From NCBI RefSeq assembly GCF_024758505.1, contig NZ_CP077970.1:1860001-1924000 (forward strand): a DNA stretch of 64,000 nucleotides, given 5' to 3'. The position numbers were made by a program, and so were the translations under genes. Shown in pieces: positions 23,240 to 52,613 of the stretch (positions within the stretch are counted from its first letter, which is position 1; each line of letters opens with the position of its first letter). The notes below the pieces were generated by a model. The model saw only the letters and a list, made by a program, of their open reading frames with translations, had not been told where the DNA came from and made no database searches. This DNA is from Bradyrhizobium arachidis. Lineage in GTDB: Bacteria > Pseudomonadota > Alphaproteobacteria > Rhizobiales > Xanthobacteraceae.

Positions 23240-23253
23240 CAGGGAGCCGTCCA

Positions 23254-33463: not shown

Positions 33464-33589
33464 GAACTTGTCCTTTTCGGCTGTAACGCGAGCGCACGGC
33501 AATCTTCGGCCAGAGGCTCGACGTCACCAGCCGGGTCTTTTAAGGTTGGAAGCGAGCGGAAAGGTCCCGCGCCTCAGCGGGGGACTGAA

Positions 33590-34810: not shown

Positions 34811-35156
34811 GATCCTAGCATTTCTTTCGTGACGTCGCTGAACCCTCGATAAGGCACGGCTCAAGGGCGAACCTCCGCACGAGACCATTGAGCGTGATCG
34901 ACGATTCTTGAACGAGCTCGAGGTCTGCTTTGTGCGTCGGCCTGTAAGCCCCACATTTGTGATAGCTTCCAAAATGGCAGCGCTTGGCTTCCGGAATAAG
35001 CGGCTGGAGAAGCGTTCTCATTGCTCTTGCCAAGAGGGGGCGCAAACTTTCCAAACGTTGCTGACGCAATCGGAGCTAAGCGGGTAAGCAATTGCGCAGC
35101 GGCAAAAGGGGACCAGCCGAGCCTCTGACAATCAGAAACCACAGCCCTCGAAGCGA
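34811..35156. other. No gene seen between two minus-strand genes
   Basis: A gap of 346 bp in an otherwise tight block. Frames here are Arg/Leu-rich without motifs. It may hold a promoter for the methyltransferase-MetF pair; no consensus was recognised. Confidence 0.4.
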
Positions 35157-35804
35157 TCAACGCGAAGAGTTCAACCTGGCAAAATCGCCCCCTTCGTATT
35201 TGCTTAGAAACTCGTCAATCGTCAACTTGCGGAAATCTGGCAGCGTCGCCTGCAGGGCTTCATGATCCCAGTCCCACCAGGCCAGCCTGGCGAGCCTCCC
35301 GGCGATGTCGTCCGAGAACCGCCGCCTGACGGGGCGGGCCGGATTACCAGCGACGATCGTGTAGGCCGGCACGTCCTTGGTAACGATTGCACCGCCCGCA
35401 ACCACAGCACCAGTGCCGACGTTGCGGCCGGGAAGTACGATTGCGCCGTGACCTATCCAGACATCGTGGCCGATGTGGACCTGATGCTGCCTCCGCCAAT
35501 CGAAGAATTCTGCCTCGTCACTCTCGCCGGGAAAATAGGCGCTCGCCCGATGGATGAAATGCGACTGACTCGCGCGGTGCATCGGATGGTAGCCGGGGTT
35601 GATGCGCGTCATTGCCGCCATCGAGCAGAACTTTCCTATCGTAGTGTAGGTGATCTGGGAATCGTTTTCGACGTAGGAATAATCGCCCATCGCCACTTCT
35701 CGCAAGCTCGTGCGCACCGACCTCGCAGTACGCGCCGAGTTTGGTGCGTGCATCAGAACGCCGAGGTGGACGGTTGGTTGGACTGAGAGGGTTCTTGTGG
35801 CCAT
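35157..35804 (-). CDS. Hexapeptide-repeat acetyltransferase, phosphonate-metabolism type
   Basis: A 215-residue left-handed beta-helix acyltransferase. The early segment [43 protein letters not shown] and the run [28 protein letters not shown] resemble the family of transferases found in phosphonate (phn) operons; both are given here in part only as landmarks near residues 38-80 and 112-140. WWDWDHEAL closes the domain. ATG 35804 follows GGAG. It is 140 bp downstream of livF in the same direction. The acyl acceptor is unknown; the phosphonate link is by family resemblance from memory. Confidence 0.8.
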
Positions 35805-35944
35805 AGTTGCTCCGCAAGTTGAACGGTGAGCACTGGTCTGAACGGGATGATCACGATTTCGGGACGGATCGAGACTGTCTTGCTGATATCCGGGATGCTG
35901 GCGACCTCCAGCATCGTCGGCCGCGGGCCCGCGCCGGCATGACC

Positions 35945-36634
35945 TCAGTCCGTCTCGAAAACACTATCGGCGAGGAGATCAGTTGGATTCCGCTCTGCCA
36001 CGATCTGTCCCTTCTGGACGACCAGCGCTCGGCCGACCAGCGAGGCCAAGAAGCTCAGATCCTGATCGGCAATGATCATGGCCGTCTTTTCCGACCGCTG
36101 AATCGACAACAGCAATTCGGCGATTTCGTCGGTCACCGAAGGCTGAACTCCCTCTGTCAATTCATCAAGCAGAAGAAGTCGTGGAGAGCGAACCATGGCG
36201 CGCGCCAGGGCCAGCAACTGCCGCTCGCCTCCACTCAACGCCCCGCTGGGGCGCGCAAGAAGCTTTTCGAGTCTCGGAAAGAGACACAATATCTCGGCAA
36301 TCGGCTTTGCGTTGGCGGATCCGGGCATCATGCCCGCAAGCAACAAGTTCTCCTTTACGGTGAGGCCCGGAAAACCCGCTCCGCCTTGCGGCGCGTAGCC
36401 GAAGCCGAGACGACTGCGTCGATAGGCAGGCAGAGCTTCGATGGCATCACCGTCCAGCACGATCCGGCCACCTTCCACCGGCAACAGTCCCATGACAGTC
36501 TTGAGCAAGGTGGTCTTGCCCATACCGTTGATGCCGATGATCCCCAAGATCTCATGAGCGCCGAGATCGAAGCTTAGGCTGCGCAGTACCTGCGTCTTGC
36601 CGTAGCCCGAGATCAACCGTTCACCTTTCAGCAT
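35945..36634 (-). CDS. Branched-chain-type ABC transporter ATPase (LivF-like)
   Basis: The 229-residue ATPase has the Walker A motif GINGMGKTT, the signature [14 protein letters not shown], and Walker [11 protein letters not shown], in the LivF order. The substitution of Asp-Gln for the more usual Glu in the Q-loop region cannot be judged by eye. ATG 36634 follows AGGAGG. It overlaps livG by 14 bp, so the two are coupled. It supplies energy for the importer built by the next genes upstream. Confidence 0.92.
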
Positions 36635-37367
36635 GAGTGGCCTCCTTCTTGCGGCCAAGATAAATGTCGCGAACAATCTCGTTTGCCTCGATCTTGTCCA
36701 TGGTGTCCTCAACCAGCACCTTTCCCCTGTGTAGGACAGTAACTCGTTGCGCAAGGCGGGCGATGAACTCCAAATCGTGCTCGACGACGATCACGGTAGC
36801 GCTTGCGTTGAGAAGTTTGATGATATCAACGGTCTTCAACATCTCCTCGCGCGTCATGCCGGCGGTGGGCTCGTCAAGTAGGGCAATGCGCGGGCTGCTC
36901 GCGAGCAGCATGCCGAGCTCGCACCATTGTCGATGCGCGTGCGAGAGGGTCGCTGCCGGCTGGCTGGCCAGACTTTCGTTGAAGCCGATCTCGTCCAGAG
37001 TCAGCTCGACGACCCTGTCCAGCTGGCGCTTTGCCAGTCCCCTCCGCAAGCCGGCTAGGCGGATATTCTCGCGCACGTCAAGATTGGCGTAGATGCTGGG
37101 AATCTGGTTCTTAATGGCGATCCCAAGCCGAGCAATGCGATGGGTGGCCAGCCCATGCAGATCCCGGCCCTCGAACAGAACCTGGCCGCTGGTCGGCTGG
37201 TGTTGATGTGTGAGGCATTTGAAGAGCGTGCTCTTGCCGGCGCCGTTCGGGCCTATGAGGCAGCGGATTTCGCCGGCGGTAATGACGAGGTCGACACCAT
37301 CAACTGCGGCGAGACCTCCGAACCGCTTAACGAGACCGCGCGTCGCAAGAATGGGGGTCTCGCTCAT
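36621..37367 (-). CDS. Branched-chain-type ABC transporter ATPase (LivG-like)
   Basis: The 248-residue ATPase has Walker A GPNGAGKST, Walker B RIALLDEPTAG and the LivG-type end VTVLHRGKVLVEDTMDKIEANEIVRDIYLG. The ABC signature is altered: TLSHAHRQWCELGMLL stands where LSxGxxQ is expected, as in the urea-type UrtD/LivG group. ATG 37367 overlaps the livM stop. It works with LivF as the ATPase pair. Confidence 0.92.
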   Translation of the reverse strand: MSETPILATRGLVKRFGGLAAVDGVDLVITAGEIRCLIGPNGAGKSTLFKCLTHQHQPTSGQVLFEGRDLHGLATHRIARLGIAIKNQIPSIYANLDVRENIRLAGLRRGLAKRQLDRVVELTLDEIGFNESLASQPAATLSHAHRQWCELGMLLASSPRIALLDEPTAGMTREEMLKTVDIIKLLNASATVIVVEHDLEFIARLAQRVTVLHRGKVLVEDTMDKIEANEIVRDIYLGRKKEATHAER

Positions 37368-38380
37368 GCCGATTCCTCCTTCCGTCGCAAGATGCCGAAA
37401 CGGTTCGGGAACTTCAGGCTCGATAAGCCAAGAAGCATCGGCTGCAGGCCTTGCGGCGCGAGCATGACGAACAGGATGATCGTCGCGCCGAAAATGAGCT
37501 CCGTGTTGAAAACCTGGTTTGCGCCGAGCTGGCTGCTCAGGAGCTGAAAGCCGAAGCTTGCCACCACGGGTCCGACAAAGGCCCCGAGTCCGCCGGCGAT
37601 CACCCACAGAACGAACTGCGAGGCTTGCGGAAGATCAAAGACGTTCGGACTGACGTAGCCCATCACCGCCGTGTAAAGTGCCCCGCCAAGCCCGCCAATG
37701 GCAGCACTTACCGCAAAGCCGACGAGCTTGTAGAAGCGGATGTCATAGCCAAGAAGCTCGCTCCGCAACTCGCTTTCGCGGATCGCCGTCATGATCCGAC
37801 CGGCATCGCTCGAGCGCAGGAACGAGAGCAGAATGTAAGCTCCGGCCAGTGCCAGCAGGCAGATCGAGAAAGTCGCTTCCGTGGACAGAAATGCCTGCGG
37901 GTCGCCTGGCATATTAAGTGACGGGACTGCCGTGATCCCATTGAAGCCGCCAAGCGGCACCGGACCGATGTGAAACGAGGGATCGGCGGTTGACGTCATG
38001 AAGGAATAGAAGATCAGCGTCACGCACAGCGTGATAACGCCGAGATAGACGTCGCCTAGGCGGCTGAAGAACAGGAAATAGCCGAGGACAAGCGAAAATG
38101 CGACCGGCAGTGCGATCCCAATCAACGCGGCAAGTGTGCTGTCGCCGAGATTAAAGACCGCGATTGCATAGGCATAGGCGCCGAGACCGAAAAACACGGA
38201 ATGCCCGAGGTTCAGGATCCCGAGTGTTCCCCAGACGAAGGCAAGACCGAGTGCCGCGATCGCCATTGCCGAAAAGGCCGATAGATTGACCAGATCGAAT
38301 GGCTCCAGAATGAATGGCCCGAGAACCGCGAGGAGCACAAGGGCGACTGGGAAAAAGGCATGTTTGACTTTGCGCTTCAT
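37364..38380 (-). CDS. Branched-chain-type ABC transporter permease (LivM-like)
   Basis: A 338-residue integral membrane protein with about 8-10 hydrophobic helices. The conserved permease motif WGTLGILNLGHSVFFGLGAYAYAIAVF appears near residues 50-75, and RSSDAGRIMTAIRESELRSELLGYDIRFYKL near residues 195-225, both LivM landmarks. It lies 4 bp after livH and overlaps livG. The substrate is not indicated by the sequence; amides, urea, short amines or amino acids are all possible. Confidence 0.92.
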   Translation of the reverse strand: MKRKVKHAFFPVALVLLAVLGPFILEPFDLVNLSAFSAMAIAALGLAFVWGTLGILNLGHSVFFGLGAYAYAIAVFNLGDSTLAALIGIALPVAFSLVLGYFLFFSRLGDVYLGVITLCVTLIFYSFMTSTADPSFHIGPVPLGGFNGITAVPSLNMPGDPQAFLSTEATFSICLLALAGAYILLSFLRSSDAGRIMTAIRESELRSELLGYDIRFYKLVGFAVSAAIGGLGGALYTAVMGYVSPNVFDLPQASQFVLWVIAGGLGAFVGPVVASFGFQLLSSQLGANQVFNTELIFGATIILFVMLAPQGLQPMLLGLSSLKFPNRFGILRRKEESA

Positions 38381-38384
38381 GACG

Positions 38385-39248
38385 CTATCGACCTCCGGTC
38401 CACAAGCTGGAGACGCCAGTTGGAAAGAGGCGCAGGATGATCACGGCCAAAAGCAGCAGCGAGGCCTGGCCGACGACCGGCGTTGCGAAATAGGAAAGCA
38501 TCGCCTCAACCGGCCCGAGTATCGTTGCGGCCGACAGAAGGCCCGCAATCAGGGCTCCACCGCCGCTGATCACCGTGACGAAGGCGCGGGCAACATAGGC
38601 CGCCCCCATATGAGGAAGGACACCGGATATCGGCGCAAGCAGCGCTCCGGCCAAGCCACTGATTGCTGCGCCGACGATGAAAGTGACCGCATACACGCGA
38701 TCACAGTTGATCCCGAGGGTAGCTGACATCTCGGAATTTTGCATCGCGGCCCGCGCGATCAGTCCGTATTTCGTCCAGTGCAAAGCAAGTAGAGAACCCA
38801 CGACCAGCAGCGCGGTGATTCCAATCAGGAGCAGTTGGTAAGCACCGATGGAGTAGGCGCCAATCGGAATATTGCCCAGCGGTGCGCTCACGCCCATCGT
38901 CGTGTTGCCGAAGATGGCGGTCACCGCACCGATCAAAAACAGGCTAAGACCCCAGGTTGCCAACATCGTCGTGACCAGATGACCGTACAGCCGGCGAACG
39001 ATCAGTCGCTCCGCTACTGCACCGATCAGAGCGACGACCATCGGGGCGACAACCAACATGGAGAGCCAAAGATTGACGCCGGCATGATTGGCGATCACGG
39101 TGGCGTATCCGCCGAGCATGATGAATTCGCCATGAGCAAAGTTGATGACGCGCATCATGCCGAAAATGACCGCGAGTCCCAAGCTGATCAGGGCGAGAAG
39201 TGCAATGGAATTGACCACCGCGAAACACAACATGACGAAACTGTCCAT
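38385..39248 (-). CDS. Branched-chain-type ABC transporter permease (LivH-like)
   Basis: A 287-residue membrane protein with the LivH start NSIALLALISLGLAVIFGMMRVINFAHGEF, where the MRVINFAHGEF motif is diagnostic, and RAAMQNSEMSATLGIN further in. It has eight or so hydrophobic helices. It forms the membrane pore with the LivM-like protein. It is 85 bp after the stop of the nearer binding-protein gene. Confidence 0.93.
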   Translation of the reverse strand: MDSFVMLCFAVVNSIALLALISLGLAVIFGMMRVINFAHGEFIMLGGYATVIANHAGVNLWLSMLVVAPMVVALIGAVAERLIVRRLYGHLVTTMLATWGLSLFLIGAVTAIFGNTTMGVSAPLGNIPIGAYSIGAYQLLLIGITALLVVGSLLALHWTKYGLIARAAMQNSEMSATLGINCDRVYAVTFIVGAAISGLAGALLAPISGVLPHMGAAYVARAFVTVISGGGALIAGLLSAATILGPVEAMLSYFATPVVGQASLLLLAVIILRLFPTGVSSLWTGGR

Positions 39249-39333
39249 GAACTATCTCGGCTTGCGAAAATGCAAATAGGAAAATCGGACTGACGGCGCC
39301 GCGAAAAGTGCGGCGCCGCCAGCGCTGGCCCAC

Positions 39334-40569
39334 CTAGATCTGCGGCATCAGAAAATCCGTCTGGTTGGGATTGGTGAAGACGTTGCATTTGCCACCATAC
39401 GTATCCGGCGGAATCTGCTCCTTCTTCTCAATCAGGCTCCAGACGCGGTTCTCGACCTTGATGATGTGAACGTCTTGGGTCGTGTTATGGGTGGGGCCAT
39501 CCGTGGTCATGACCCCGGCCGGACCTTCCCAGCGGATGCCGCTTTCGAGGGCAGCCAGGACCGCCTCCCGTTCGAAGCTGCCGGCACGCTTGACCGCTTC
39601 GGCCCAGAGCATGACACCGCTATAGCCGCCGAACACCTCGCCATTGATATAGGGGTGGTTCTTGCCGGCAACGGCTTCCACCTTGGCCAGAAATTCCTTG
39701 TTCTTCGGAGTGTCGAGTTCTTGGAAGTAGTTGTACGCAACGATCAGGCCGTCCGTTTCCTCCGGAGCAAGAACCTCGTGCTCGTTGCCAGCGGCAAACA
39801 CGATCGAGATAATCGGAATCCTCTTTAGCATCCCGGCCGCTGCCCATTGGCGATAGAACGACATGGCCGGGCCGCCAACGAGGCAGGAATGCACGACGTC
39901 CGGCTTAGCGGCCTGTATCTTTGCAATAGCCGCGGTGAAATCCGTGACATCGAGGGGATAGTAATCATCGGCTAACACCTGGCCACCTTCGCGCTTGGCC
40001 ATCACGTGATTCCAGATCCCGAAATTGCGGGGGGCGTTATAGTCCGACGCAATATAGTAGAGCTTCTTTCCGAGATTCTTGAACGACCATTCGAGCAAAG
40101 GAACGACCTGCTGGTTACCGCCCGTGTTGACGCAGAATGTATTCTTCTCGCAAAGTCCGCCTTCGTAGAATGAGCCGTAGACGAAAGGTATCTTGTACTT
40201 GCGCAGAACGGGGCGCGTGGCTTCGCGCGCGGCGCCGCTGAGCGCACCTTGTACCATGACGACCCGATCGTTCAGCGCCGCCTTCTGCGCGTATTGCGGG
40301 TACTTGTTGATGTCGGACTGGCCATCATAAACCTTTAGCTCGACCTTTTTGCCGAGTAGGCCGCCTGCGCCGTTGATCTCCTCAACGGCGACCTTCATGC
40401 ACAAATTCGAGGGTACGCCATAAATATCAAGAGGTCCCGACAAATCATGGAGGGATGCAATAGCGATGGTGTCGGATGCGGCCCAGGCGCCTCCGGCAAA
40501 AGAGCCGGCGATGGATGCAGCAGAGAGCGCTGCGGAAGTGCCGAGAAACGAGCGACGGGATAGTTTCAC
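39334..40569 (-). CDS. ABC transporter substrate-binding protein, branched-chain/amide type (copy 1)
   Basis: A 411-residue periplasmic type I binding protein. A GTG start at 40569 behind AAGGAGA gives KLSRRSFLGTSAALSAAS, a Tat signal peptide, cleaved near AWA-A. The mature protein starts SDTIAIASLHDLSGPLDIYG, the usual ligand-site loop. It is nearly the same length as its neighbour at 40687 and closely similar along its entire length. These are tandem duplicates. The pair has many conserved aromatic residues in the ligand region. The ligand is unknown. Confidence 0.93.
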   Translation of the reverse strand: MKLSRRSFLGTSAALSAASIAGSFAGGAWAASDTIAIASLHDLSGPLDIYGVPSNLCMKVAVEEINGAGGLLGKKVELKVYDGQSDINKYPQYAQKAALNDRVVMVQGALSGAAREATRPVLRKYKIPFVYGSFYEGGLCEKNTFCVNTGGNQQVVPLLEWSFKNLGKKLYYIASDYNAPRNFGIWNHVMAKREGGQVLADDYYPLDVTDFTAAIAKIQAAKPDVVHSCLVGGPAMSFYRQWAAAGMLKRIPIISIVFAAGNEHEVLAPEETDGLIVAYNYFQELDTPKNKEFLAKVEAVAGKNHPYINGEVFGGYSGVMLWAEAVKRAGSFEREAVLAALESGIRWEGPAGVMTTDGPTHNTTQDVHIIKVENRVWSLIEKKEQIPPDTYGGKCNVFTNPNQTDFLMPQI

Positions 40570-40686
40570 TAGAATTCTCCTTGGATTGCTCGAACGAAGA
40601 GGCGTGCTCTCCTGCCGAGTGGTGACTAACGAAAAGCAAGCAAATGAGGCTGCGGCGCCGCTTGGAGACGCAGCGCCGCGAGCCAC

Positions 40687-41922
40687 CTACATCTGTGGCA
40701 TCAAGAATTCCGTCTGATTTGGGTGGGCAAAGACGTCGCACCTGCCGCCATAGCTGTCCGGCTGGATCTGTTCTTTGGTTGCAACCAGGCTCCAGACTCG
40801 GTTTTCGACCCTGATGATGCGTACGTCTTGGGTAGTGTGGTGCGTAGGCCCGTCGGTGACCATTTTCCCGCCGGGCCCTTCCCAAGTGATCCCGGTTTCC
40901 CAAGCCTTCATCACTGCGTCGCGATCGAAACTGTTCGCGCGCTTGACGGCCTCGGCCCACAACATAACTGTATTGTATCCACCGATCGCCTCGCCATTGA
41001 TGTAGGCGTGGTTTTGACCCATCGCTTGAGCAAAACGCGCCAGAAAGGCTCTGTTTCGTGGCGTATCGAGCTCCTGGAAATAGTTGTAGGCCGCGTAGAT
41101 GCCGTTCGTCTCTTCAGGTGCCAAAATCTCGTGCTCTTGCCCACCACCGAAAATGATCGAGACGATGGGAATCTTCTTCAGCATTCCCGCTGCGGCCCAT
41201 TGACGGTAGAAGGACATTGACGGACCACCAACCAGGCAGGAATGGATGAAATCCGGCTTTGCCGCCTGGATCTTGGCGATTGCCGCAGTGAAATCCGTAA
41301 CATCGAGGGGATAATAGTCGTCCGCAAGCACCTCGCCGTCTTCGCGCTTTGCCATCACGTGATTCCAGGCTCCGAATGTGCGCGGCGCGTTGTAATCGGA
41401 GGCGATGTAATAGAGCCTCTTACCAAGAGTTTTGAACGACCACTCGAGCAGCGGAACGACCTGCTGGTTTCCTTCGGTGCTGCAGCAAAATATGTTCGGT
41501 TCGCAGGCGCCACCTTCATAGATCGAACCATAGAAATACGGCACCTTGTATTTGCGCAGAACCGGTCGCGTCGCCTCTCGGGCAGCTCCAGTCAAGGCGC
41601 CCACCGCCATCACGGCTCGGTCGCGCAACGCCGCCTGCTGCGCGTATTGCGGACCTTTGTTGATGTCCGACTGGCAGTCGTAGGCCTTCAGGACGACTTG
41701 CTTGCCGAGTAGCCCGCCCGCCGCGTTTAACTCCTTGACCGCGAATTCCGTGCACATGTTGGACGGTGCGCCATAGACATCGAACGGTCCGGAGAGATCG
41801 TACAGTGAGGCAATGGTTACGGTGTCCGAGGCCGGAGAGGCGGAGCCGGCCAGTGAACCAAAAACGGAGGCGGCTGATACCGCGGCGGAAGAACGGAGCA
41901 ATGTGCGACGTGACAAATTCAT
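40687..41922 (-). CDS. ABC transporter substrate-binding protein, branched-chain/amide type (copy 2)
   Basis: A 411-residue paralog of the 39334 gene, with a Tat signal MNLSRRTLLRSSAAVSAAS and cleavage near the SASPA-S region. Long stretches match copy 1, such as NQQVVPLLEWSFK and LADDYYPLDVTDFTAAIAKIQAAKPD, while positions lining the ligand cleft differ (for example YGSIYEGGACEPNIFC against YGSFYEGGLCEKNTFC). An AAAGGAGGA precedes the ATG. The two receptors probably widen the substrate range of one importer. Confidence 0.93.
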   Translation of the reverse strand: MNLSRRTLLRSSAAVSAASVFGSLAGSASPASDTVTIASLYDLSGPFDVYGAPSNMCTEFAVKELNAAGGLLGKQVVLKAYDCQSDINKGPQYAQQAALRDRAVMAVGALTGAAREATRPVLRKYKVPYFYGSIYEGGACEPNIFCCSTEGNQQVVPLLEWSFKTLGKRLYYIASDYNAPRTFGAWNHVMAKREDGEVLADDYYPLDVTDFTAAIAKIQAAKPDFIHSCLVGGPSMSFYRQWAAAGMLKKIPIVSIIFGGGQEHEILAPEETNGIYAAYNYFQELDTPRNRAFLARFAQAMGQNHAYINGEAIGGYNTVMLWAEAVKRANSFDRDAVMKAWETGITWEGPGGKMVTDGPTHHTTQDVRIIRVENRVWSLVATKEQIQPDSYGGRCDVFAHPNQTEFLMPQM

Positions 41923-42051
41923 GAGTATCCTCCTTTAAGGCTCGCAATAAGAGTCCAACGCGGCGAGCAACTGCGGCGCCGGGGATAGACGACGAACGGG
42001 CAGGCGTGATGATCGTTGGCGGCAAGCGAATCCCCGCGGGCGGGATCAGGA

Positions 42052-42882
42052 CTATCTTCGTCGCGCCATTGGAACGACTTGACGCTCGACGGGCAGGTCG
42101 GGCTCGTACAGGTACTTTGCGCTTGTATCGAGAAAGTCGTGGGTGTGGATCACCACCGCGTCCGAGTTCAGGAACGCGATCGCATAGGCTGGCGGCTCCA
42201 TGCTGCAGGGAATCCCTCGCTCGTGACTGAAATCGAGCCACAATTGATGATTGAGCCCCCGCAAGGAGGAAAAGGGAATGTTTTGCCAGCTTCCGGCGAT
42301 TGGGCGATGCACATGCCCGAAGAACAGATGGCGGATGGAGTGTCCGTCGAGGAGCCGTCCAAATCTTGCAGCATCGTCCAGCATGATGTCGTCAGCCGGT
42401 CGGAAGTGAACCGGAAGCGGCGGGTGGTGCATGAAGAGATAGACAGGGCTGCCTTGTGACTCTCCCAGACGCGTGCGCAACCATGCCTGGCGCTGCTCAC
42501 AGTAAAGGCCGGCGTGGCTGTCGGTTTGCTTTGTATCGAGGAAGAGAAAGCGTCCGGCCGCCGTATCGAGCGCGGATTGAACGAAGCCGAAATCGTCAAG
42601 AGGAGCCTCGGGAAACACGCTTCGGAAATTGGCCCGATCGTCATGATTGCCCATCAAGAGCCGCACCGGCATAGGCAGGACCTTTAGCGCCTCGCGCAGG
42701 CGAACGTAGGCGCTTTTCTCGCCGTGATGAGCGAGATCACCGGTGATGACGCAGAGCTCCGCATCTGCGTGCTGCCTGGCGATATCGGCCAGGCAGGCGT
42801 TCAGGCGCTCACCCGGGTCGTTGTCGAAGAGACGATTGCCAGCTGGGACCAGGTGAAGGTCGGTGATTTGAATGATTTTCAT
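42052..42882 (-). CDS. Metallophosphoesterase (CpdA/GpdQ-like phosphodiesterase)
   Basis: A 276-residue calcineurin-type phosphoesterase with all five metal-binding blocks: DLH near residue 8, GDLAHHG, MGNHDDR, MHHPPLPVH and GHVHRP. The family includes class III cAMP phosphodiesterases and glycerophosphodiesterases or phosphonate-ester phosphodiesterases. The insert typical of GpdQ is not obvious. It lies 21 bp from the MetE-like gene, and both are transcribed toward the binding-protein genes, so it probably acts on the imported compound or its ester. That role is inference. Confidence 0.88.
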   Translation of the reverse strand: MKIIQITDLHLVPAGNRLFDNDPGERLNACLADIARQHADAELCVITGDLAHHGEKSAYVRLREALKVLPMPVRLLMGNHDDRANFRSVFPEAPLDDFGFVQSALDTAAGRFLFLDTKQTDSHAGLYCEQRQAWLRTRLGESQGSPVYLFMHHPPLPVHFRPADDIMLDDAARFGRLLDGHSIRHLFFGHVHRPIAGSWQNIPFSSLRGLNHQLWLDFSHERGIPCSMEPPAYAIAFLNSDAVVIHTHDFLDTSAKYLYEPDLPVERQVVPMARRR

Positions 42883-42903
42883 TATTGGAGGCTACTTGCG
42901 CTG

Positions 42904-44076
42904 TCAGGAAGCAACGGCTTCAACGGAGGGCCTGGCGTTCGCGTTCCAGAGCCGGCGAGTCGCAATCTCGGCGCCCTGCACAAGCGACTCGAGCTTGCGC
43001 CAGGCGATGTCCGGATCGACAGTGTGGAACGTTGCAAAACTGGCAAAGCCACAGTCGGTGCCAGCGATCACTCGCTCCCGTCCGACCAAATTGGCGTATT
43101 GTTCGATGCGCTGGGCGACGACCTCGGGATGTTCAATGTAGTTCGTGCAGGTGTCGATGACACCCGGCACGATAATCTTGTCGTCGGGGAGCCGCGTCTG
43201 TTTGAACAGACTCCATTCGTGCGAGTGACGTGGATTTGCCGCCTCCAGCAGAAGTGCCATCGGCCGCGCCTTGATGATGATATCGAAGATCTCGTGGAGA
43301 TCGATATCGTGATGATGGGGCGATTCGTAATTGCCCCAACATAGATGCAGTCGCATCCGATCGGCGGGAATGTCGCGCAGGGCATGATTAAGGACCTCGA
43401 CGTGAAGGGCAATTTCCTTGCGAAACTCCGCGACATCCATCGGCTTCGCCCGGAAATGGCGTCCAAGCGCCAGATCAGGGCAGTCGATCTGCAGAAGGAT
43501 GCCCGATGCAGCGATGGCGTCATATTCCTTCTTCATCGCGTCAGCCAAGGCATAGAGATAGGCCTCCTGCGAGGGATAATATTTGTTCGGCATGTAGTGG
43601 GCCATAATCCCCGGCGACGAGGCGTTCATGAATGCCTCCTCAACAGAAACCATATTGAGTGCCGCTTTGAGGTTGGCGATATCCGTCGCCACCGCCGCCT
43701 CTCCCTGGTACGCGATAGGTCCCACGCACGCAGGCGTCTTGATATCTAGATCGACCCGCTTTGCGAAATTCGAAAACTCCGCCAGCTCGGACAACGCAAG
43801 CGGCTGATCAACGCCCGTCAGACCTGTCATGCGCTCGCGCGCATAGGTCGAATAGGCGTATTTGCTCATCTCGCCATCATCGACAACCGCAAGCCCAATA
43901 AGCGATTGCTTTTTTACGATGTCGAGGACCGCTGAACTGACGCTGGTCGCCAGCAACGGATTGCGGTCAGCGTCCAGTTCGCTCTTCTCTTTTGCTAGGA
44001 GCATCTCCTCCAATGCAGAGGGCCGCGGCAGACTGCCGACGTGGGTCGTGAGGATACGGTCGGTGCTTATTTTCAT
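42904..44076 (-). CDS. MetE-like (cobalamin-independent methionine synthase II family) methyltransferase
   Basis: A 390-residue TIM-barrel protein related to the C-terminal half of MetE. It begins TDRILTTHVGSLPRP, typical of this subfamily, and has LLQIDCPDLALGR, RMRLHLCWGNYESPHHHDI (histidine and cysteine for zinc), and VIAGTDCGFASF with the last zinc cysteine. It lacks the MetE N-terminal domain and therefore probably moves methyl groups between a small molecule and a thiol or folate. It is the first gene of the block, divergent from the LysR gene at 44989, and pairs logically with the MetF-like enzyme at its far end. Confidence 0.87.
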   Translation of the reverse strand: MKISTDRILTTHVGSLPRPSALEEMLLAKEKSELDADRNPLLATSVSSAVLDIVKKQSLIGLAVVDDGEMSKYAYSTYARERMTGLTGVDQPLALSELAEFSNFAKRVDLDIKTPACVGPIAYQGEAAVATDIANLKAALNMVSVEEAFMNASSPGIMAHYMPNKYYPSQEAYLYALADAMKKEYDAIAASGILLQIDCPDLALGRHFRAKPMDVAEFRKEIALHVEVLNHALRDIPADRMRLHLCWGNYESPHHHDIDLHEIFDIIIKARPMALLLEAANPRHSHEWSLFKQTRLPDDKIIVPGVIDTCTNYIEHPEVVAQRIEQYANLVGRERVIAGTDCGFASFATFHTVDPDIAWRKLESLVQGAEIATRRLWNANARPSVEAVAS

Positions 44077-44307: not shown

Positions 44308-44988
44308 TTAAATTGGCTGGCATTCAATCGGCTCATCTATCGCCGCTGCCAATTTTATTCTGCGCGAAAGCCTTAATCCGCGCGCTAAATTATGCCAAAT
44401 CTTACCGGTCTTGCTGAAAAGCGATCCAGCGAGCAAGTTAAATGGTCGAGATGCACCTGCGAAACGGCGCGCAACTGGCGCAGTCAAAAATCAAGGTTGT
44501 GTGTTTCTGTTGCGCAGAGAAAACACTCTCCAAGCGGAGGGGGCTTGGTTTGCCTATACTGGAGAGTAACGCGCCCAAGCTCTGCTTTGGAGACGCAGTA
44601 GAAGTTTGACATTTCGGATACCATGTGATGTTCATTTTCAACCACCACAGCAGAAGCCTCTACCGGGAGTTGAGGCAGCATCTTAAGAAGAGTCTTTCGT
44701 CGATTTGCGATCTTGAAGCAGGCCATGTGGGGAAGGGCGATATGAGGTTAGGGTATTCGCGACAGTAAGTTGTTTCGATCGTCGGTCGAGACACAGCGGT
44801 GATCAGCAAATACTTTAAGAAGAACGCCGAAGCCGCGCGCCTCAATTCTCTGAGCCGTGCCGCTCAGGTCGCCGTTAGGCCGCCCAGTACATACAACTCC
44901 AACCTTGCCAGTAGGCAGGGGCGCGAAAAGCCTTGAAACCGCGTCGGAATGCGAATCTACGGCAATAGGAGGAGCAGGCGTCGAAGGC

Positions 44989-45885
44989 ATGAAAATTAGT
45001 TCTCATCAGATTGCGGCCTTTACAGAGGTCTTCCGGCAGAGAAGCGTTTCAGAAGCTGCAGCTGTCCTCGGTGTCACCCAATCGGCCGTCACCCAGCACC
45101 TTGCGAAGCTTGAGCAACATATGGGGACGACACTCTTTATCCGTCATCGCAGCGGGCTCGAGCCGACAAAACCGGCTCAGGAACTGTTTGCGCTAACTGA
45201 TCGCGTTCGAGTCCTCGAGCAGCTCGTCGCGGAGAAGATCAATGCCTACAGTGACCTATCGGCCGGACATCTAACGGTGATCGCGAACGCGCCGCGCCCG
45301 GCAATGCCACTTATTTCCGAGTTCAACCGGCAGTTTCCTGCAGTCAGAATCACGTTCTCCCTAGTGCCCTGGGAGCTTGCTAAGCAACGGCTTGAAGCGC
45401 GTGATGTCGATATTGCTATCATCACGGAGCCTGATGACATTGCCAACCTATTCCACGTGCAGCTAAGCAAGACTCGGCTCATGGCGCTCATGCGGCGCGA
45501 GCACCGACTCGCCTGCAGACCGACACTCACTCTTGCCGAACTTGCCCAAGAGAGAATCATTCTAACCGAGGATGGTTCGCTGACGCTCCGCGAAGTGGAA
45601 AAAGCATGTCTTGAGAACAGTACAAGTATGCCCAATGTTATCAAAATGGCGACTTATCCTGTTCTGAAGGAGGCCGTTCTGCACGGAATCGGAATCGGCG
45701 TCCTCCTCGAGGACAGCGTGTTTCCAGCAGAGGAGCTCGTCTATAAAACAGTCGACGAACTCTCGAGTGATTTCAAAACGTATATTGTCACGACATCGGA
45801 TAAAAGACGCCTACGCTGCGTAAAATCATTCTTCGAAACCGTTGAGATTTCCTTAGAAAATCAAGGCAAAACGTTTCCCCGCTAG
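44989..45885 (+). CDS. LysR-family transcriptional regulator
   Basis: A 298-residue LysR protein. The N-terminal winged helix-turn-helix is clear: AFTEVFRQRSVSEAAAVLGVTQSAVTQHLAKLEQHMGTTLFIR, about residues 9-50. The effector-binding domain spans about residues 90-290. ATG 44989 is placed by homology to the family start; AGGAGGAG lies about 15 bases upstream. It is divergent from the MetE-like/ABC block and is the natural regulator of it. A start at 44857 would add a non-LysR extension. Confidence 0.9.
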   Translation: MKISSHQIAAFTEVFRQRSVSEAAAVLGVTQSAVTQHLAKLEQHMGTTLFIRHRSGLEPTKPAQELFALTDRVRVLEQLVAEKINAYSDLSAGHLTVIANAPRPAMPLISEFNRQFPAVRITFSLVPWELAKQRLEARDVDIAIITEPDDIANLFHVQLSKTRLMALMRREHRLACRPTLTLAELAQERIILTEDGSLTLREVEKACLENSTSMPNVIKMATYPVLKEAVLHGIGIGVLLEDSVFPAEELVYKTVDELSSDFKTYIVTTSDKRRLRCVKSFFETVEISLENQGKTFPR

Positions 45886-46475: not shown

Positions 46476-47918
46476 CTAGACCGACCAGGGAAGCGAGTAG
46501 GTCTTCAACTGCGTGAAGCTCCGCATCGCCTCCAGCACGCCCTCTTTGTGCCCGAGTCCGGACTGCTTGATTCCCCCGAAAGGGGTCAATTCGGTGCGAT
46601 ACCCGGGAACTTCCCACACGTTGACGGTACCAACCGCGAGACCGTCGATGAGCTTCGTTACATGATCAAGCCGGTTGGAGCACACTCCAGCAGAAAGTCC
46701 AAACTGGGTCGCGTTCGCAATCGATATGATCTCATCAACATCATTAGGACAACGGATGATCGGCAGCACAGGCCCGAATGTTTCTTCAATAACAAGTTCG
46801 GACGTTGCTGAGACGTGGTCCAATAGGGTGGGCGGATAAGACGCGCCGTCAGGCTGGTTACCCAGCAACAGGGTAGCACCAGCATCGACGGCATCGGCAA
46901 CCCGGCGAGCAATCAGCTGGGCAGCCTCTCGACTGATGACGGTGCCGATGTCAACCGATGGATCGCTGGGATCGCCGGTCGAAAGCTTCAGCATGTGATG
47001 GAGCGCCCGCTCGGCGAATTCGTCGGCAACGGAGTCTACCACTAACGCCCGCTTGACGGCTGTACATCGTTGACCCGAGTTCTTGGTCGCTCCCTGAACC
47101 GCCAAATACGCTGCCCGATCGACGTCGGCATCCTCAAGCACAATGATGGGGTCATTCCCACCGAGCTCCAAGATGAGCTTCCGGTAACCGGATCGTTCCG
47201 CAATATGGTGCCCAACGTGCACGGAGCCAGTAAACGTGACGAGCTCAGCATTTGGATCGGTAAACATGGCGTCTCCCAAGGGGGCGGGAGCCCCTGTCAG
47301 GATCGAAAGCATTCCCTCCGGCAGGCCTTGCTCGTAGAGAATCCTTCCGAGCGCCAGGGCGGTCAATGGCGCTCGCTCAGATGGCTTCAGGACGACGCGG
47401 TTGTTTGTCGCAATCGCGGGCGCGAGTTTATGGCTGACGAGATTGAGAGGATGATTAAACGGCGTGATAGCTGAGATCGCACCCGCAAGGGGTGTTCGCA
47501 TGGAAAAAATGCGCCGATCATGTGGGGTTGCGCCAATGTCAGATGGATAAATCTCGCCGTCGCTCTGGATTAACATATGGGCAGCAAATGACCAGACGTC
47601 GCATGCACGCCCGGTTTCATGCAAAGCGTCCTTCAGGCAGAGACCTGTTTCTGCTGTGATAAGCCGAGCAAGTCGGTCTTGATCTCTTCTAAGGGCGCTT
47701 GCCGTCCCCAGGAGGATATCCGTTCGTTCGCGGCGCGTGAGCCGAGGATGAATCCGCGCGGCTGCTTCAAATGCTCGGCGTGCATGCTCCGGTCTGCTTT
47801 GCGGGACTCTGCCAAAAAGCATCCCTGTGAATGGGTTCTTCACCTCGATCGTTGCGTCCGAGTGGGCGGGCGCACCTGCGATGAGCATTGGATGATAGTC
47901 TTGATCGGTATCGTACAT
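46476..47918 (-). CDS. Aldehyde dehydrogenase, phosphonoacetaldehyde-dehydrogenase-like
   Basis: A 480-residue NAD(P)-dependent aldehyde dehydrogenase. The catalytic Cys is in GQRCTAVKR (Cys285), the general base in LELGGNDP (Glu251), and the cofactor motif FTGSVHVG near residue 229. The start DYHPMLIAG and the Arg immediately before the catalytic Cys, plus ITPFNHPLNLVSHK, resemble PhnY-type phosphonoacetaldehyde dehydrogenases, which oxidise phosphonoacetaldehyde to phosphonoacetate. The match is from memory; sulfoacetaldehyde or another charged aldehyde is possible. It is the last of three linked minus-strand genes. Confidence 0.85.
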   Translation of the reverse strand: MYDTDQDYHPMLIAGAPAHSDATIEVKNPFTGMLFGRVPQSRPEHARRAFEAAARIHPRLTRRERTDILLGTASALRRDQDRLARLITAETGLCLKDALHETGRACDVWSFAAHMLIQSDGEIYPSDIGATPHDRRIFSMRTPLAGAISAITPFNHPLNLVSHKLAPAIATNNRVVLKPSERAPLTALALGRILYEQGLPEGMLSILTGAPAPLGDAMFTDPNAELVTFTGSVHVGHHIAERSGYRKLILELGGNDPIIVLEDADVDRAAYLAVQGATKNSGQRCTAVKRALVVDSVADEFAERALHHMLKLSTGDPSDPSVDIGTVISREAAQLIARRVADAVDAGATLLLGNQPDGASYPPTLLDHVSATSELVIEETFGPVLPIIRCPNDVDEIISIANATQFGLSAGVCSNRLDHVTKLIDGLAVGTVNVWEVPGYRTELTPFGGIKQSGLGHKEGVLEAMRSFTQLKTYSLPWSV

Positions 47919-48071
47919 GTCATAACTCTCTTTGGGCGTCTATTTGAGATCCACGACCGCGGTTGCGTTTCTTGGAAGCAGATAAGGGAGGCGATCGGAG
48001 CACCTCTTTGAACAGCCCGTTTTCGTTCCAAACCAGAGCGATGAAGATCAGCCGCATATGCGGCCACCGAA

Positions 48072-49232
48072 CTAGGACACGAGACCCATATTGCCGGTTG
48101 TCGCGATCTCATTGCCGCCGATGCCGATGCAGCGCTGAAACATGGTCTTGTTCTGAAGGGGAGAATATCGGCTCGTGACGCGAGCAAGCTGAGAGGGATG
48201 GAGGCGGTTGACCTTGCAGACCACGAAATGAGGGCCGCTGCGCCGGGCGCACTGCCGCAAGGCCGTCGTGATATGCTCGGCCCGCTCACAGCGAGTAGCC
48301 GTTCGATAACCGCAGGCGGACGCAACGGCCTCGAGAGATGTCGTTCGTGACGTCGAGAACTGCCCGCCCGTCGAAACGTATCCTTCGTTGTCCAGTACCA
48401 CATGAATGAGATTCTGGGGGGCGGCGTAGCCTATCGTCGATAGGATACCCATGTGCATCAGCGCGCCGCCGTCTCCATCCAGTGCCAGCACAGGTCGGGT
48501 CGGCGAAGTCAGCGCGACCCCTGCCGCAACCGCGCTGCAATGTCCAAGGGAGCCCTGCATGTAGAAGTTAGTGGGACGATCCTGAATGCGGAACAGCTCA
48601 CGTGAAATGTATCCGGTCGTGGAAACAATAAGAGTATCGGGTTCGAGCTGCTGATAAATCAACTCAATGGCTTGCCCGACACTGACCCCATAATGGATTG
48701 CATCAGTCTGTCTTTCATCCGGGCTGCACTTGGATAGCTGACCTCTCCGAAAAAGCAATGCAAACGGCGCTGAGCGATGAAACGCATCGTCGCCTTGTGC
48801 GAGGGCGTTATCCAAGCCGGACTCGGTCCCATCAAAGTCACAGGATTCCATAGAGAACTGGTTCAAGATGGCTCTTGTGTTGGCACCCATGATCGTGTGT
48901 TGGGGCTCGTCGGCAGGTTCATCGGGGTGGCCACGAACGGATAAGAGGAGAAGGATGGGAATCTTGTTGACCATTAACAGAGATGTCAGCGGGTTGATGA
49001 TGTTTCCGAGCCCGGAATTTTGAAGCGCAACGACCCCTCGTTGACCTGAGAGCGCCGCGCCAGCAACTAGCGCAACTGCGCTGCCTTCGTTGGCCGCAGG
49101 CAAGCTCAGGAATTCTGAAGCTTCAGCGACTTGGTCGAATAGACCACCAAAGATAGAACACGGTACCCCAGAAAAGACCGTGTAACCCGCCACCCGAAGC
49201 TTAGACAAGAGAACATGGATTGGAATAGTCAT
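48072..49232 (-). CDS. Phosphonopyruvate/sulfopyruvate decarboxylase-like ThDP enzyme
   Basis: A 386-residue single-chain thiamine-diphosphate enzyme. The N-terminal PYR half has VFSGVPCSIFGGLFD and AANEGSAVALVAGAAL, with the catalytic Glu, and LQNSGLGNIINPLTSL; the PP half has the ThDP motif LDGDGGALMHMG to LDNEGY. This pattern fits phosphonopyruvate decarboxylase (to phosphonoacetaldehyde) and the related sulfopyruvate decarboxylase. The aldehyde dehydrogenase downstream would use either product. The C-terminal tail (about 20 residues, QNKTMFQRCIG onward) is atypical. No PEP mutase gene is in the window. Confidence 0.85.
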   Translation of the reverse strand: MTIPIHVLLSKLRVAGYTVFSGVPCSIFGGLFDQVAEASEFLSLPAANEGSAVALVAGAALSGQRGVVALQNSGLGNIINPLTSLLMVNKIPILLLLSVRGHPDEPADEPQHTIMGANTRAILNQFSMESCDFDGTESGLDNALAQGDDAFHRSAPFALLFRRGQLSKCSPDERQTDAIHYGVSVGQAIELIYQQLEPDTLIVSTTGYISRELFRIQDRPTNFYMQGSLGHCSAVAAGVALTSPTRPVLALDGDGGALMHMGILSTIGYAAPQNLIHVVLDNEGYVSTGGQFSTSRTTSLEAVASACGYRTATRCERAEHITTALRQCARRSGPHFVVCKVNRLHPSQLARVTSRYSPLQNKTMFQRCIGIGGNEIATTGNMGLVS

Positions 49233-49304
49233 GTCGTGCTCACGAGATGCATCGAGAGCAGCGGCGGAATGAGCCGTTCCTGCAGAGCGGAAAAGTCATT
49301 GGGG

Positions 49305-50381
49305 TCAGACGATCTTTCTCGCGACGATGAGGCTGCGATTGCAGATTGATTTGTGGAATTCGATCTCCTGGAAGCCGGTCCTCTCGAGCATGGCCCGCAT
49401 GTCCTCAAAGCTGTAACAGCAGCCTTCGTATCCCGTGGTAAGGAGCACGGAGTACTCCGCTTCGGCGGCCGGGGACGGGCGGCCTCCGCGATCATCAGGG
49501 TGGCAGCCGTAAATTGCTATCCGACCATCGCAAGCAATGCTGTCAAAAGACTTGCTCAGGAGCAGATGAACCTTGTCTGGTCCCCAATTATGAAGAACGT
49601 GCGAATAGAGGTGGAGGCTAGCATTCCGAGGCAGGGGATCAACGAACATGTCGCCGGCTATGACATTGGCACGACTCGGGTACAAATTCCGATCTGTCAG
49701 GCACGTCCTTGCAAGCCGATCAACAGGGGAACGCTCAAGGATCGTTGCAGAGAGTGGGGAATAGCGCATCAACAAATGCGCAGAATAGACTCCCGATCCA
49801 CCGCCTACATCGAGTACGCAAGTATCATTCGTGCAATCAAGCAGCTTCGCAAGGTGCGGAGCAAAGATCCGTCCGCGTTCCTCCATCCCGCGTGTATTCA
49901 GATCGGCGAACTCATCCGTCTGCATCAAGGCGTCCCAGGTCTTGGTTACGCCGCGCTCGACGTGCCAGGTATCCGAGCCATCCTGTCGCAGGACCTCATA
50001 AAGTTCCCGCACAGATGGCTTATATTTCATCGTTGCAATATACGACGCGACGTTGTCCGCGGAATTTCCGCTCAGATACCGAACGGCTGTCGCTGTTGCG
50101 TGCAGTCGGCCGGATTGTCTGGAGATGAGGCCCCACGATTCAAAGAGGCGAAGCATGGTCCGCGTTGGCCGCTCGCGAAGAGAGAAATCAACTCGCAATT
50201 CCTCTTCCGTTACCGGTTGGTTATCCAGGTAAGTAAAGAGATCAAGCCATGAGACTGCGGCAATATAGAGATCAGCAGCATAGGAGCTGTCGCGCCACTT
50301 GATAATTTGAGTAATATCGGGAAAGCAGACAGGCGCGGCTTCAGAGTTCTGGGCGCGCGACGTCAGTGCAGACGAATGCAT
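49305..50381 (-). CDS. O-methyltransferase (Methyltransf_2 type)
   Basis: A 358-residue methyltransferase with an N-terminal winged-helix dimerisation domain (about residues 25-110) and a C-terminal SAM-binding domain: CVLDVGGGSGVYSAHLL (motif I), then the catalytic-region segment LYSHVLHNWGPDKVHLLLSK, which has His in the place of the usual base. Such enzymes methylate hydroxyl or carboxyl groups of secondary metabolites. It is first of the three-gene set, 72 bp before the ThDP enzyme. ATG 50381 has a modest upstream site. The substrate is unknown. Confidence 0.85.
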   Translation of the reverse strand: MHSSALTSRAQNSEAAPVCFPDITQIIKWRDSSYAADLYIAAVSWLDLFTYLDNQPVTEEELRVDFSLRERPTRTMLRLFESWGLISRQSGRLHATATAVRYLSGNSADNVASYIATMKYKPSVRELYEVLRQDGSDTWHVERGVTKTWDALMQTDEFADLNTRGMEERGRIFAPHLAKLLDCTNDTCVLDVGGGSGVYSAHLLMRYSPLSATILERSPVDRLARTCLTDRNLYPSRANVIAGDMFVDPLPRNASLHLYSHVLHNWGPDKVHLLLSKSFDSIACDGRIAIYGCHPDDRGGRPSPAAEAEYSVLLTTGYEGCCYSFEDMRAMLERTGFQEIEFHKSICNRSLIVARKIV

Positions 50382-50815
50382 TGCTGCAAGTCCTTGTCAA
50401 AACGAGCGTGTATCTGTGAATGAGCTATTGCTGAATGTCGGCAAGCTCCAGTCCGACGTTTAGCGAGCAATCAGTGACACGCGTCTGTCATCTAGATCAA
50501 TTGCCATTGTTGGTAGTTGACCGTTCGCAAAATGTCTCGGTCACGGCTCGGAGGAATGGCCGTTAATCGAATGATCACAAGCTGTCAGTGTTGGTGCGGA
50601 AGATCAAACAGGCCATGCTTGTGTGGTTCGACGAGTCCTATGCGCAGTGCGTCTCCACATTAGCGTCGAGTGCGACCGCTGCGATCTGCTTTAGGCAGTA
50701 CGAAGGTCGCTCCACGATGTAGGTCGCTTGCGGACGATTGCGTTGTAAAAGTTCGGTCCGTGATAGTTAGGGAACAAAGACTGCGGACTTGGTATGCGCG
50801 AATGCGACTCGAATT

Positions 50816-50980: not shown

Positions 50981-52613
50981 ATGACCAAAACCACGAGCTG
51001 GGCCAATGGTGGTATTGGCGGGCATGCGACAGCGAAAGTCGATGTCCTGGTTATCGGAGCCGGCGTCGCTGGCCTTTATCAGCTGTACCGGCTACGGGAG
51101 CTCGGGCTGAACGTCAGGGCGATCGACGCGGCCTCAGGGGTCGGCGGCACTTGGTATTGGAACCGTTATCCTGGTGCGCGCGTCGATTCAGAGGGACACG
51201 TCTATCAGTACCTTTTCTCCGAAGACCTCTACAAAGGATGGAGCTGGAGCGAAAGGTTTCCGAGCCAACCCGAAATCGAACGCTGGCTCAATTACGTGGC
51301 GGACCAGCTTGATCTACGCAAGGACATTCAGTTCGGCGCGACGGTCCAGAGCGCTCATTTCGATGAAGCGACGGAGCGATGGGTGGTCGTGACCGACAAG
51401 GGTGATATGATCGATACCCAGTTTCTCGTCACCTGTTGCGGCATGCTTTCGGCGCCCCATGTGTCTTTCCCGGGCCAGGAGACATTCAAGGGGCAGGCGT
51501 TTCATACGGCGCGATGGCCGCAGCAACTGGTCGATCTTACTGGGAAGCTTGTCGGCGTGGTCGGTATCGGACCAACTGGGATCCAGGTGGTCCAGACGAT
51601 CGCGCAAAAGGTCGGCCAGCTCAAGGTGTTCGTCCGCACGCCGCAATACATCCTCCCTATGAAGAATCCCAAGTACAACGCCGCCGACGTCGAGGCCTAC
51701 AAGTCGAAGTTCAAAGCCCTTACCGAGCTGCTGCCGCACACGTTCACGGGCTTCGAATATGACGTTCAGTACGCCTGGGCCGGTCTGCCACCGCAACAGC
51801 GCCGCAAGGTGATCGAAGACTGCTGGAACGATGGTTCTGTGAAGTTGTGGATGGCGTCCTTCGCCGAATTGTTCTTCGATGAGGGGGTAAACGCGGAGAT
51901 CTCCGAATTCGTGCGCGCGAAAATGCGCGAGCGGCTCAGGGATCCAAAACTATGCGAGCTGCTGATCCCGAGCGATTACGGATTCGGCACCCATTTTGGA
52001 GCAGAATTTCCTCGAGGCGTTCCATCGAGCCAGTGTGGAGGTTGTCAACGTCAAGACCAACCCAATCGAGCGCGTCACGACCGAAGGCATCCAGACGGCG
52101 GACGGCACAGTTCACCGGCTCGACGTCATCATCCTAGCGACGGGATTCGACGCAGGAACGGGCGCTTTGACCCGCATCGACATCCGCGGTCGCGATGGAC
52201 GGTCGCTGAAGGAGGAGTGGGGCAGAGACATCCGGACCACCATAGGGTTGCAAGTTCACGGCTATCCCAATCTCTTCACGACCGCGGCGCCGCTAGCCCC
52301 CGTGGCCGCGCTTTGCAACGCGACCACTTGCTTGCAGCAGCAGGTCGAGTGGATAACCGGATGCATTAGCTATCTCCGTGGCAAGAACTTGAAGTTCATC
52401 GAACCCTCCAAAGCGTTGGAAGATCAGTGGGTGGCGCATCACGAGGAAACCGCCAACGCAATGCTGATCGCCAAGACTGATTCCTGGTACCTGGGATCGA
52501 ACGTCGAAGGGAAGCCGCGCCGAGTGCTCTCCTACACCGGGGGTGTAGGCAGCTATCGGCAAAAATGCGACGAAGTCGTCGCAAGCGGCTGTGAGGGCTT
52601 TGCCGCGCACTAG
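50981..52613 (+). pseudogene. Flavin-containing (Baeyer-Villiger type) monooxygenase with a frameshift
   Basis: The gene starts at ATG 50981 behind GGGAGGAG. The first frame has VIGAGVAGLYQLYRL (FAD), FKGQAFHTARWP (the Baeyer-Villiger fingerprint) and VGIGPTGIQVVQ (NADPH). At about 51985-51997 it shifts after SDYGFGTH: the homologous continuation EQNFLEAFHRASVEVVNV lies in the next frame, through ILATGFDAGTGAL to 52613. A small deletion has removed the link residues usually found there (an RVPL-like segment). Combined length would be about 540 residues, as in the family. As sequenced the protein would be truncated at 462 codons with a foreign tail. A sequencing error is the alternative. Confidence 0.85.

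Follow-up and report, generated by a model that had tools for sequence, protein, structure and literature searches.

Three adjacent genes of Bradyrhizobium arachidis, encoding an O-methyltransferase (OMT), a phosphonopyruvate decarboxylase (Ppd), and a PhnY-like aldehyde dehydrogenase (ALDH), appear to form the later part of an operon for phosphonate synthesis, with phosphonopyruvate most likely supplied by a distant, altered phosphoenolpyruvate (PEP) mutase (PepM). We put the probability of this reading at about 0.6. The genes lie in a stretch of 64,000 nucleotides (G000:C1:1860001-1924000, here called the window) of a 9.43-Mb genome assembled as a single contig (G000). A first-pass annotation of this DNA had described the three genes as adjacent and in one direction and had proposed a phosphonate pathway without a PEP mutase. 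The observation itself was confirmed, since we found three intact open reading frames on the minus strand in the transcription order OMT-Ppd-ALDH (OMT, 50381-49305, 358 amino acids; Ppd, a fused one-chain thiamine diphosphate enzyme, 49232-48072, 386 amino acids; ALDH, 47918-46476, 480 amino acids), separated by gaps of 72 bp and 153 bp; the interpretation is partly supported.

Families were assigned with curated NCBIfam cut-offs. Ppd reached 339.2 bits against the phosphonopyruvate decarboxylase model TIGR03297 (cut-off, 312.5), and the ALDH reached 665.7 bits against the phosphonoacetaldehyde dehydrogenase model TIGR03250 (cut-off, 635.65). A sulfonate pathway, from sulfopyruvate through sulfoacetaldehyde to sulfoacetate, draws on the fact that the NCBIfam model ranking second for Ppd, behind TIGR03297, is one for sulfopyruvate decarboxylase. 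However, Ppd failed the cut-offs of both the beta (153.6 versus 221.5) and the alpha (82.8 versus 147.95) models, the ALDH failed that of the sulfoacetaldehyde dehydrogenase SafD (351 versus 700), and the corresponding operon of relatives is headed by a PEP mutase gene rather than a sulfonate gene. We dropped the sulfonate reading, which we consider very improbable, on these family cut-offs, in line with the earlier preference for a carbon-phosphorus (C-P) product. Ppd and ALDH also belong to broad superfamilies, but the specific family scores and the adjacency of pepM in relatives make enzymes for ordinary branched keto acids and aldehydes hardly credible.

Among solved structures, 4i3t was closest in sequence to the ALDH, and the two aligned nearly end to end. 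Four residues (Arg, His, Arg, and the catalytic Cys; hand-counted chain numbers 111, 162, 293, and 294) were identical in the two proteins. With the 4i3t chain numbers taken as offset by 3 from those of S. meliloti PhnY, they match R108, H159, and R290, which we take to bind the phosphonate, and C291, presumably the catalytic residue. The OMT scored 66.7 against PF00891 (cut-off, 22.3), and the His of its LHxW stretch, to which we assign its presumed role in PF00891 methyltransferases, aligned with solved relatives. As these relatives are diverse, comprising carminomycin and other natural-product enzymes and the small-acid enzyme DSYB, family membership does not fix the substrate; methylation of a phosphonate or phosphonoacetate by the OMT is a prediction.

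The predicted role in phosphonate metabolism is well supported by gene neighborhoods in related genomes. We scanned genome contigs with a profile built from aligned Bradyrhizobium decarboxylases and retained the top 80 of 573 loci, 10 of which were from Bradyrhizobium. Eight of them (L023-L030) showed the arrangement PepM-OMT-Ppd-gap-ALDH, all on one strand, and the gap carried an EamA exporter gene in 8 of 8, so that the intact operon reads pepM-omt-ppd-exporter-dehydrogenase; its PepM is canonical, with an EDK motif. The other two, from B. iriomotense (L021) and Bradyrhizobium sp. Ec3.3 (L022), had the layout of the window, without PepM within 10 kb. Neighbors in related genomes, to which the first-pass annotation had looked for signs of a different pathway, thus favor a phosphonate route, since there the operon opens with a canonical pepM.

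A sample of 195 Bradyrhizobium genomes contained a PepM relative in 84, the OMT in 14, and Ppd in 16, the last set including G162 and G092 with stops and G043 at 39% identity. pepM was directly upstream of the OMT gene in 10 of the 14 OMT genomes (G024, G028, G039, G056, G064, G097, G098, G102, G124, and G166); the two were separate in 3 (G000, G017, and G171), and the OMT was in two pieces in 1 (G092). Because 7 of the 8 named operon loci come from assemblies also present in this sample, the two sets are not independent, and their union gives 11 operon-type genomes. These include three without nodA at E 1e-80 (G064, G097, and G166), and the operon-type PepM of G124 lies 2 Mb from nodA. A PepM-OMT-Ppd set was also seen in another family of the order (L262, from G267), with identities of 65% for PepM and 66% for OMT and, for the first 102 Ppd residues covered by the stretch, 61%.

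The window cluster holds no PEP mutase gene. As the first-pass annotation had stated, none was found in the window, where operon-type PepM gave no significant tblastn match across the 64 kb (best E, 0.58), and no PepM remnant was found upstream of the triad. Judged by layout and a remnant of the exporter gene, the window form is derived from the pepM-headed operon, without pepM and with the exporter reduced. About 43 codons matching the N terminus of the EamA/DMT exporter (47929..48057, minus strand) occupy the 153-bp Ppd-ALDH gap, in the orientation expected and where the exporter stands in intact operons. The EamA protein of L023 matched with an E value of 0.014 against the whole 64-kb window and with 26.6 bits against the gap alone, compared with a best of 23.1 bits for 200 single-base shuffles of the gap. 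The remnant was also matched in L021 (25.4 bits) and more weakly in L022 (20.0 bits; 21.6 with the L165 query), and tblastn gave no clear exporter match in the gaps of L162 and L163. Elsewhere in the G000 genome, the best match to the exporter was 29%.

The remaining three genes are under purifying selection in the window and in four window-type relatives. Nei-Gojobori estimates for the window paired with each relative gave dN/dS values of 0.10 to 0.15 for ALDH, 0.16 to 0.21 for Ppd, and 0.13 to 0.16 for OMT, at dS values of 0.17 to 0.54, and all three frames were free of stops in all five. Such low ratios indicate that the triad was kept as protein in the absence of a mutase and an exporter of its own, provided that both were lost before the lineages split. 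They also argue against the triad being a functionless leftover of the operon. Decay of this kind would agree with the absence of pepM, the reduction of the exporter to a remnant, the disrupted frame of the adjoining monooxygenase gene (fragmented in G017), and the broken genes of G092 (OMT in two pieces, Ppd with stops) and G162 (Ppd), but with stop-free frames and constrained sequences in five lineages we regard it as improbable.

The first-pass annotation had allowed that a PEP mutase might be encoded elsewhere and had suggested a genome search for pepM. A protein encoded at G000:C1:1677861-1678721, 230 kb from the triad with nodA in between (at 1789359, preceding the window by 71 kb), scored 326.4 against the PEP mutase model TIGR02320 (cut-off, 319.55). 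Seven matches to PF13714 were found in G000; three others scored 30.4 to 86.6 on TIGR02320, and the remaining three, weak and in long frames, were left out of this scoring. The best solved relative of the distant PepM was the mussel PEP mutase 1m1b, and W44, S46, D58, D85, D87, K120, N122, R159, and H190 (mussel numbers), for which we assume the roles ascribed to them in the mussel enzyme, were all kept. The published mark of PEP mutase is EDK(X)5NS (PMC6697681). The distant PepM departs from it, reading QDSCFPKMNS, with Gln for Glu and Ser for Lys. The EDS form of G017 also passed TIGR02320 (326.7), and an altered-type PepM was present in all five window-type genomes checked (G000, G017, G171, B. 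iriomotense, and Ec3.3).

We aligned 101 full-length PepM rows, 90 from 81 of the 84 PepM genomes, 8 from the named operon loci (7 of them from the same assemblies as the genus sample), and 3 outgroups. The motif started with EDK in 22 rows, EDS in 71, QDS in 6, KDS in 1, and EDN in 1, the EDK group consisting of every operon row (18), the 3 outgroups, and G108. Among the 79 altered rows, W44, S46, D85, D87, K120, R159, and H190 were kept in 79 of 79, and D58 and N122 in 78 rows each. From this alignment, the altered PepM is a Bradyrhizobium subfamily in which the motif lysine is replaced, the island copies carrying mostly serine and rarely asparagine, unlike the canonical EDK. A further 16 rows outside the alignment, mostly second copies, had Ser or Asn at the lysine place wherever it was readable and never EDK; the majority were interrupted by stops or frame changes or lacked other residues. 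Second altered-type copies were seen in several Bradyrhizobium genomes (L290-L304), many with stops or frame changes, and pieces of the altered-mutase locus seem to have been copied and lost often. The best 120 database matches to the G000 PepM comprised 81 EDS, 22 EDK, 11 EDT, and 6 QDS. In a quick tree of the 101 rows, a single change from Lys sufficed, with a branch support of 95 by the Shimodaira-Hasegawa-like approximate likelihood ratio test (SH-aLRT); after addition of 16 rows, most from other genera, two changes from Lys were needed, the second presumably in Mesorhizobium with EDT.

Eighteen pairs of altered-type PepM gave dN/dS values of 0.07 to 0.17, which indicates that the full-length copies are under selection. 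We therefore disfavored the view that the altered mutase is a pseudogene, dN/dS being about 0.1, a rejection tempered by the long end branches (0.14 to 0.53) of the rows from G000, G094, G082, G185, and G143, in which the Glu is also changed, and by the breaks in the 16 further rows. Assignment as a phosphonopyruvate hydrolase was likewise disfavored, as the G000 protein scored 193 on TIGR02321 (cut-off, 374.4) and hydrolase-like genes elsewhere keep EDK with Thr or Ser in place of Asn, the reverse of the altered type. Such hydrolase-like genes (L149:18271-19143, L160:14701-15564, L248, and L249; EDKTFPKVTS/VSS) occur near an altered-type PepM or in the same genome. That of L149 has 2dua as its best solved relative and scores 353.4 on TIGR02321, just below the cut-off, and the L160 copy carries a stop.

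The altered mutase is tied to nodA. With nodA called at E 1e-80 or better (108 of the 195 genomes), a full-length altered-type PepM was present in 75 genomes, 74 of which had nodA, against 34 of the 120 genomes without one (Fisher test, 9e-26, kinship ignored); seen the other way, 74 of the 108 nodA-bearing genomes carry it. In 27 tabulated genomes with both genes on one contig, PepM lies 32 to 530 kb from nodA (median, 87 kb). G192 and G107 have two copies each, of which the one closer to nodA was measured (the second copy of G192 is about 3.8 Mb away), and four of the plasmids, those of G036, G060, G121, and G180, share identical PepM copies at 218 kb from nodA. The arrangement altered pepM-nodA-triad, or its mirror image, is seen in G000, G017, and G171. 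The symbiosis link proposed in the first-pass annotation thus stood as far as the distant mutase gene is concerned. On the symbiosis island of Mesorhizobium loti R7A, pepM (msi327) and aatA (msi326) were expressed strongly in nodules, at 827 and 2456 Miller units, and in broth at <20; nodule expression depended on nifA2, and the mutants were fully effective (PMC3538637). A word search of the main text of that paper found no word beginning with "phosphon."

The altered PepM of the window genome sits in a second island locus, in the order pepM-aminotransferase-cytidylyltransferase, as in Mesorhizobium sp. 131-3-5. We surveyed neighbors at 17 loci from 16 chosen genomes (G000 plus 16 stretches of 20 kb) and found long matches to an aminotransferase (at least 350 residues) at 7, to a cytidylyltransferase-like protein (at least 240 residues) at 13, and to a CDP-alcohol phosphatidyltransferase (at least 190 residues) at 9. 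A similar gene set occurs on plasmids of other rhizobia and on one Ti plasmid. PepM was matched in 107 of 72,556 plasmid records, and the eight examined had an aminotransferase and a cytidylyltransferase in seven and a CDP-alcohol phosphatidyltransferase in six; their PepM motifs comprised six EDK, one EDT, and one EDS. On the Agrobacterium Ti plasmid (L274:7935-13143), pepM, aminotransferase, cytidylyltransferase, and CDP-alcohol phosphatidyltransferase genes stand together, and the mutase has the canonical EDK. An aminotransferase of the aspartate superfamily can couple with PEP mutase, as PnaA does (PMC11867202). The msi327/msi326 locus of M. loti (PMC3538637) likewise places a PEP mutase gene on a symbiosis island, with likely coupling by the aminotransferase and, as far as the locus is described, without the Ppd/ALDH/OMT triad. 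The logic of PEP mutase plus nucleotidyltransferase also resembles that of the Pnt cell-surface tailoring clusters (PMC6697681). Genes of the alkaline phosphatase superfamily were seen near both kinds of PepM locus (L158:7708-9210, L161:1074-2606, L164:17055-18341, and L272:18462-19769); that of L158 belongs to the type I phosphodiesterases (PF01663) and scores weakly as a phosphonoacetate hydrolase.

The reactions, the source of phosphonopyruvate, the methylation target, and the product are predicted here from family membership, gene order, selection, and linkage. In the intact operon, PepM would convert PEP to phosphonopyruvate, Ppd would irreversibly decarboxylate this to phosphonoacetaldehyde, and the ALDH would oxidize the latter to phosphonoacetate; the OMT would probably methylate phosphonoacetate or an earlier intermediate, and the EamA exporter would probably export the product. 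The window form lacks pepM and an intact exporter gene but retains the triad under selection, and its phosphonopyruvate would most likely come from the symbiosis-region mutase 230 kb away, beyond nodA. G017 and G171 have a full-length PepM without an aminotransferase match in the surrounding 10 kb or so, and the cytidylyltransferase near it is missing or disrupted; a PepM without its usual partner genes fits supply to the triad, in these two cases only. In the fosfazinomycin route (FzmG and FzmB), phosphonoacetaldehyde is converted to phosphonoacetate and then to its methyl ester. The order of steps would be the same here, but there oxidation is by a 2-oxoglutarate dioxygenase and here by an ALDH.

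The triad could instead process phosphonopyruvate or phosphonoacetaldehyde derived from phosphonoalanine or other phosphonates of nodule or soil, rather than from PEP. Such orphaned salvage would agree with the loss of its own pepM and exporter, with a C-P lyase gene (PhnJ) kept in the genome, with the phosphonopyruvate hydrolase-like genes near PepM in some other genomes, and with amino acid/urea-type ATP-binding cassette (ABC) importer genes within 15 kb. However, the G000 genome has no phosphonoacetate hydrolase PhnA and no PhnW over cut-off (best, 100.7 versus 400.8), so that the route would end at phosphonoacetate; a methyltransferase is not known as part of a phosphonate degradation route; and the operon of relatives starts with pepM. 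We consider salvage unlikely. The PhnW-PhnY-PhnA route of 2-aminoethylphosphonate degradation shares the PhnY-type ALDH, but with Ppd and a methyltransferase present and PhnA and a qualifying PhnW absent, the triad does not correspond to it.

Several points weigh against synthesis from a distant mutase. The usual substrates of PF00891 methyltransferases are of other kinds, and the phosphonate assignments rest on TIGR models, which are sequence-based. The only G000 protein to pass the PEP mutase model carries QDS, and its mutase activity is only predicted; extra altered copies in the genus are often broken by stops or frame changes or lack further residues. Full-length altered PepM is also found in genomes lacking a triad, such as G060, which has aminotransferase fragments and no cytidylyltransferase, so PepM can be retained for reasons other than the triad. 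Cytidylyltransferase-like frames occur far from PepM in G017 (47%) and, interrupted by a stop, in G171, and the absence of an aminotransferase in these two genomes covers about 10 kb around PepM, no genome-wide aminotransferase search having been made. Loss of pepM before the split of the five lineages is suggested by their shared layout and is undated, loss of the exporter is not accounted for by the proposed pathway, and PhnJ in G000 means that phosphonate use is also possible.

Upstream of the triad, a scan for Nod, NifA, sigma-54, tts, and Pho boxes found none. A single FixK/FNR-like site, TTGCGAACGGTCAA (50517..50530, minus strand), lies upstream of the OMT gene; its call is speculative and rests on the consensus we assume for FixK/FNR. 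About 0.04 such sites would be expected in the scanned stretch by an arithmetic estimate, and the aligned place fits the consensus in the window, L021, L022, and L162 but not in L163. Next to the triad, a Baeyer-Villiger type monooxygenase gene (50981-52613) is broken by a frame change, its longest stop-free stretch being 487 amino acids in the window, 555 to 576 in L021, L022, and L163, and 173 in L162. On the other side, a LysR gene (44857-45885, plus strand) was dropped as a candidate regulator of the triad: it faces the ALDH gene tail to tail, stands back to back with a MetE-like gene, and scored 161 as phn_lysR (cut-off, 341). Window positions 32579-44076 (minus strand) encode MetF-like and MetE-like proteins, a urea/amino acid type ABC importer with two binding proteins, and an SpdA-like phosphodiesterase. 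The triads of L021, L022, and L163 likewise have LysR and MetE genes in their vicinity, and metE and metK of the M. loti island are expressed in nodules (PMC3538637). A hexapeptide transferase of the phn_thr family (35157-35804; TIGR03308, 291.7 versus 201.65), which the first-pass annotation had counted in favor of C-P chemistry, lies about 11 kb from the triad and about 1 Mb from PhnJ (G000:C1:884710). With no match above 60 bits in flanks of up to 10 kb at the eight operon-type Bradyrhizobium loci, it is unlinked to the operon in relatives and was dropped as support. Further off, positions 12186-25433 read by eye as a putative uptake hydrogenase and maturation cluster.

The pepM-ppd-dehydrogenase set is already in print for the free-living Bradyrhizobium roseus S12-14-2, which shares pepM, ppd, and the phosphonoacetaldehyde dehydrogenase gene pdh with the operon (PMC10708946). 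The legend to Figure 6 of that paper names an O-methyltransferase (mtq), probably beside pepM, and transporters, and it also covers C-P lyase genes. Pdh is assigned there to 2-hydroxyethylphosphonate and then methylphosphonate, whereas the ALDH should give phosphonoacetate instead. No report of the split form or the altered mutase was found among the listed open-access matches for rhizobium-related terms, judged by title and start of abstract; the only relevant ones were the papers on free-living Bradyrhizobium (PMC10708946) and on M. loti expression (PMC3538637). Another of the matches, on Bradyrhizobium japonicum isocitrate lyase, names the mutase as a family member (PMC4519974). A survey of phosphonate clusters retained only mutases with EDKXXXXXNS, a screen that would exclude the altered mutase of Bradyrhizobium (PMC6697681).

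A guess from three genes has thus become a testable pathway with named genes. We tentatively suggest that nodule phosphonates could be made from Bradyrhizobium symbiosis islands through the Lys-replaced mutase, with one branch, by way of the aminotransferase, cytidylyltransferase, and CDP-alcohol phosphatidyltransferase, to phosphonolipids or phosphonate-capped glycans and, in some lineages, a triad branch to methylated phosphonoacetate. If so, motif-screened surveys would miss this mutase. With the altered pepM tied to nodA and a pepM expressed in M. loti nodules (PMC3538637), phosphonate chemistry may be a hidden and widespread trait of legume symbiosis.

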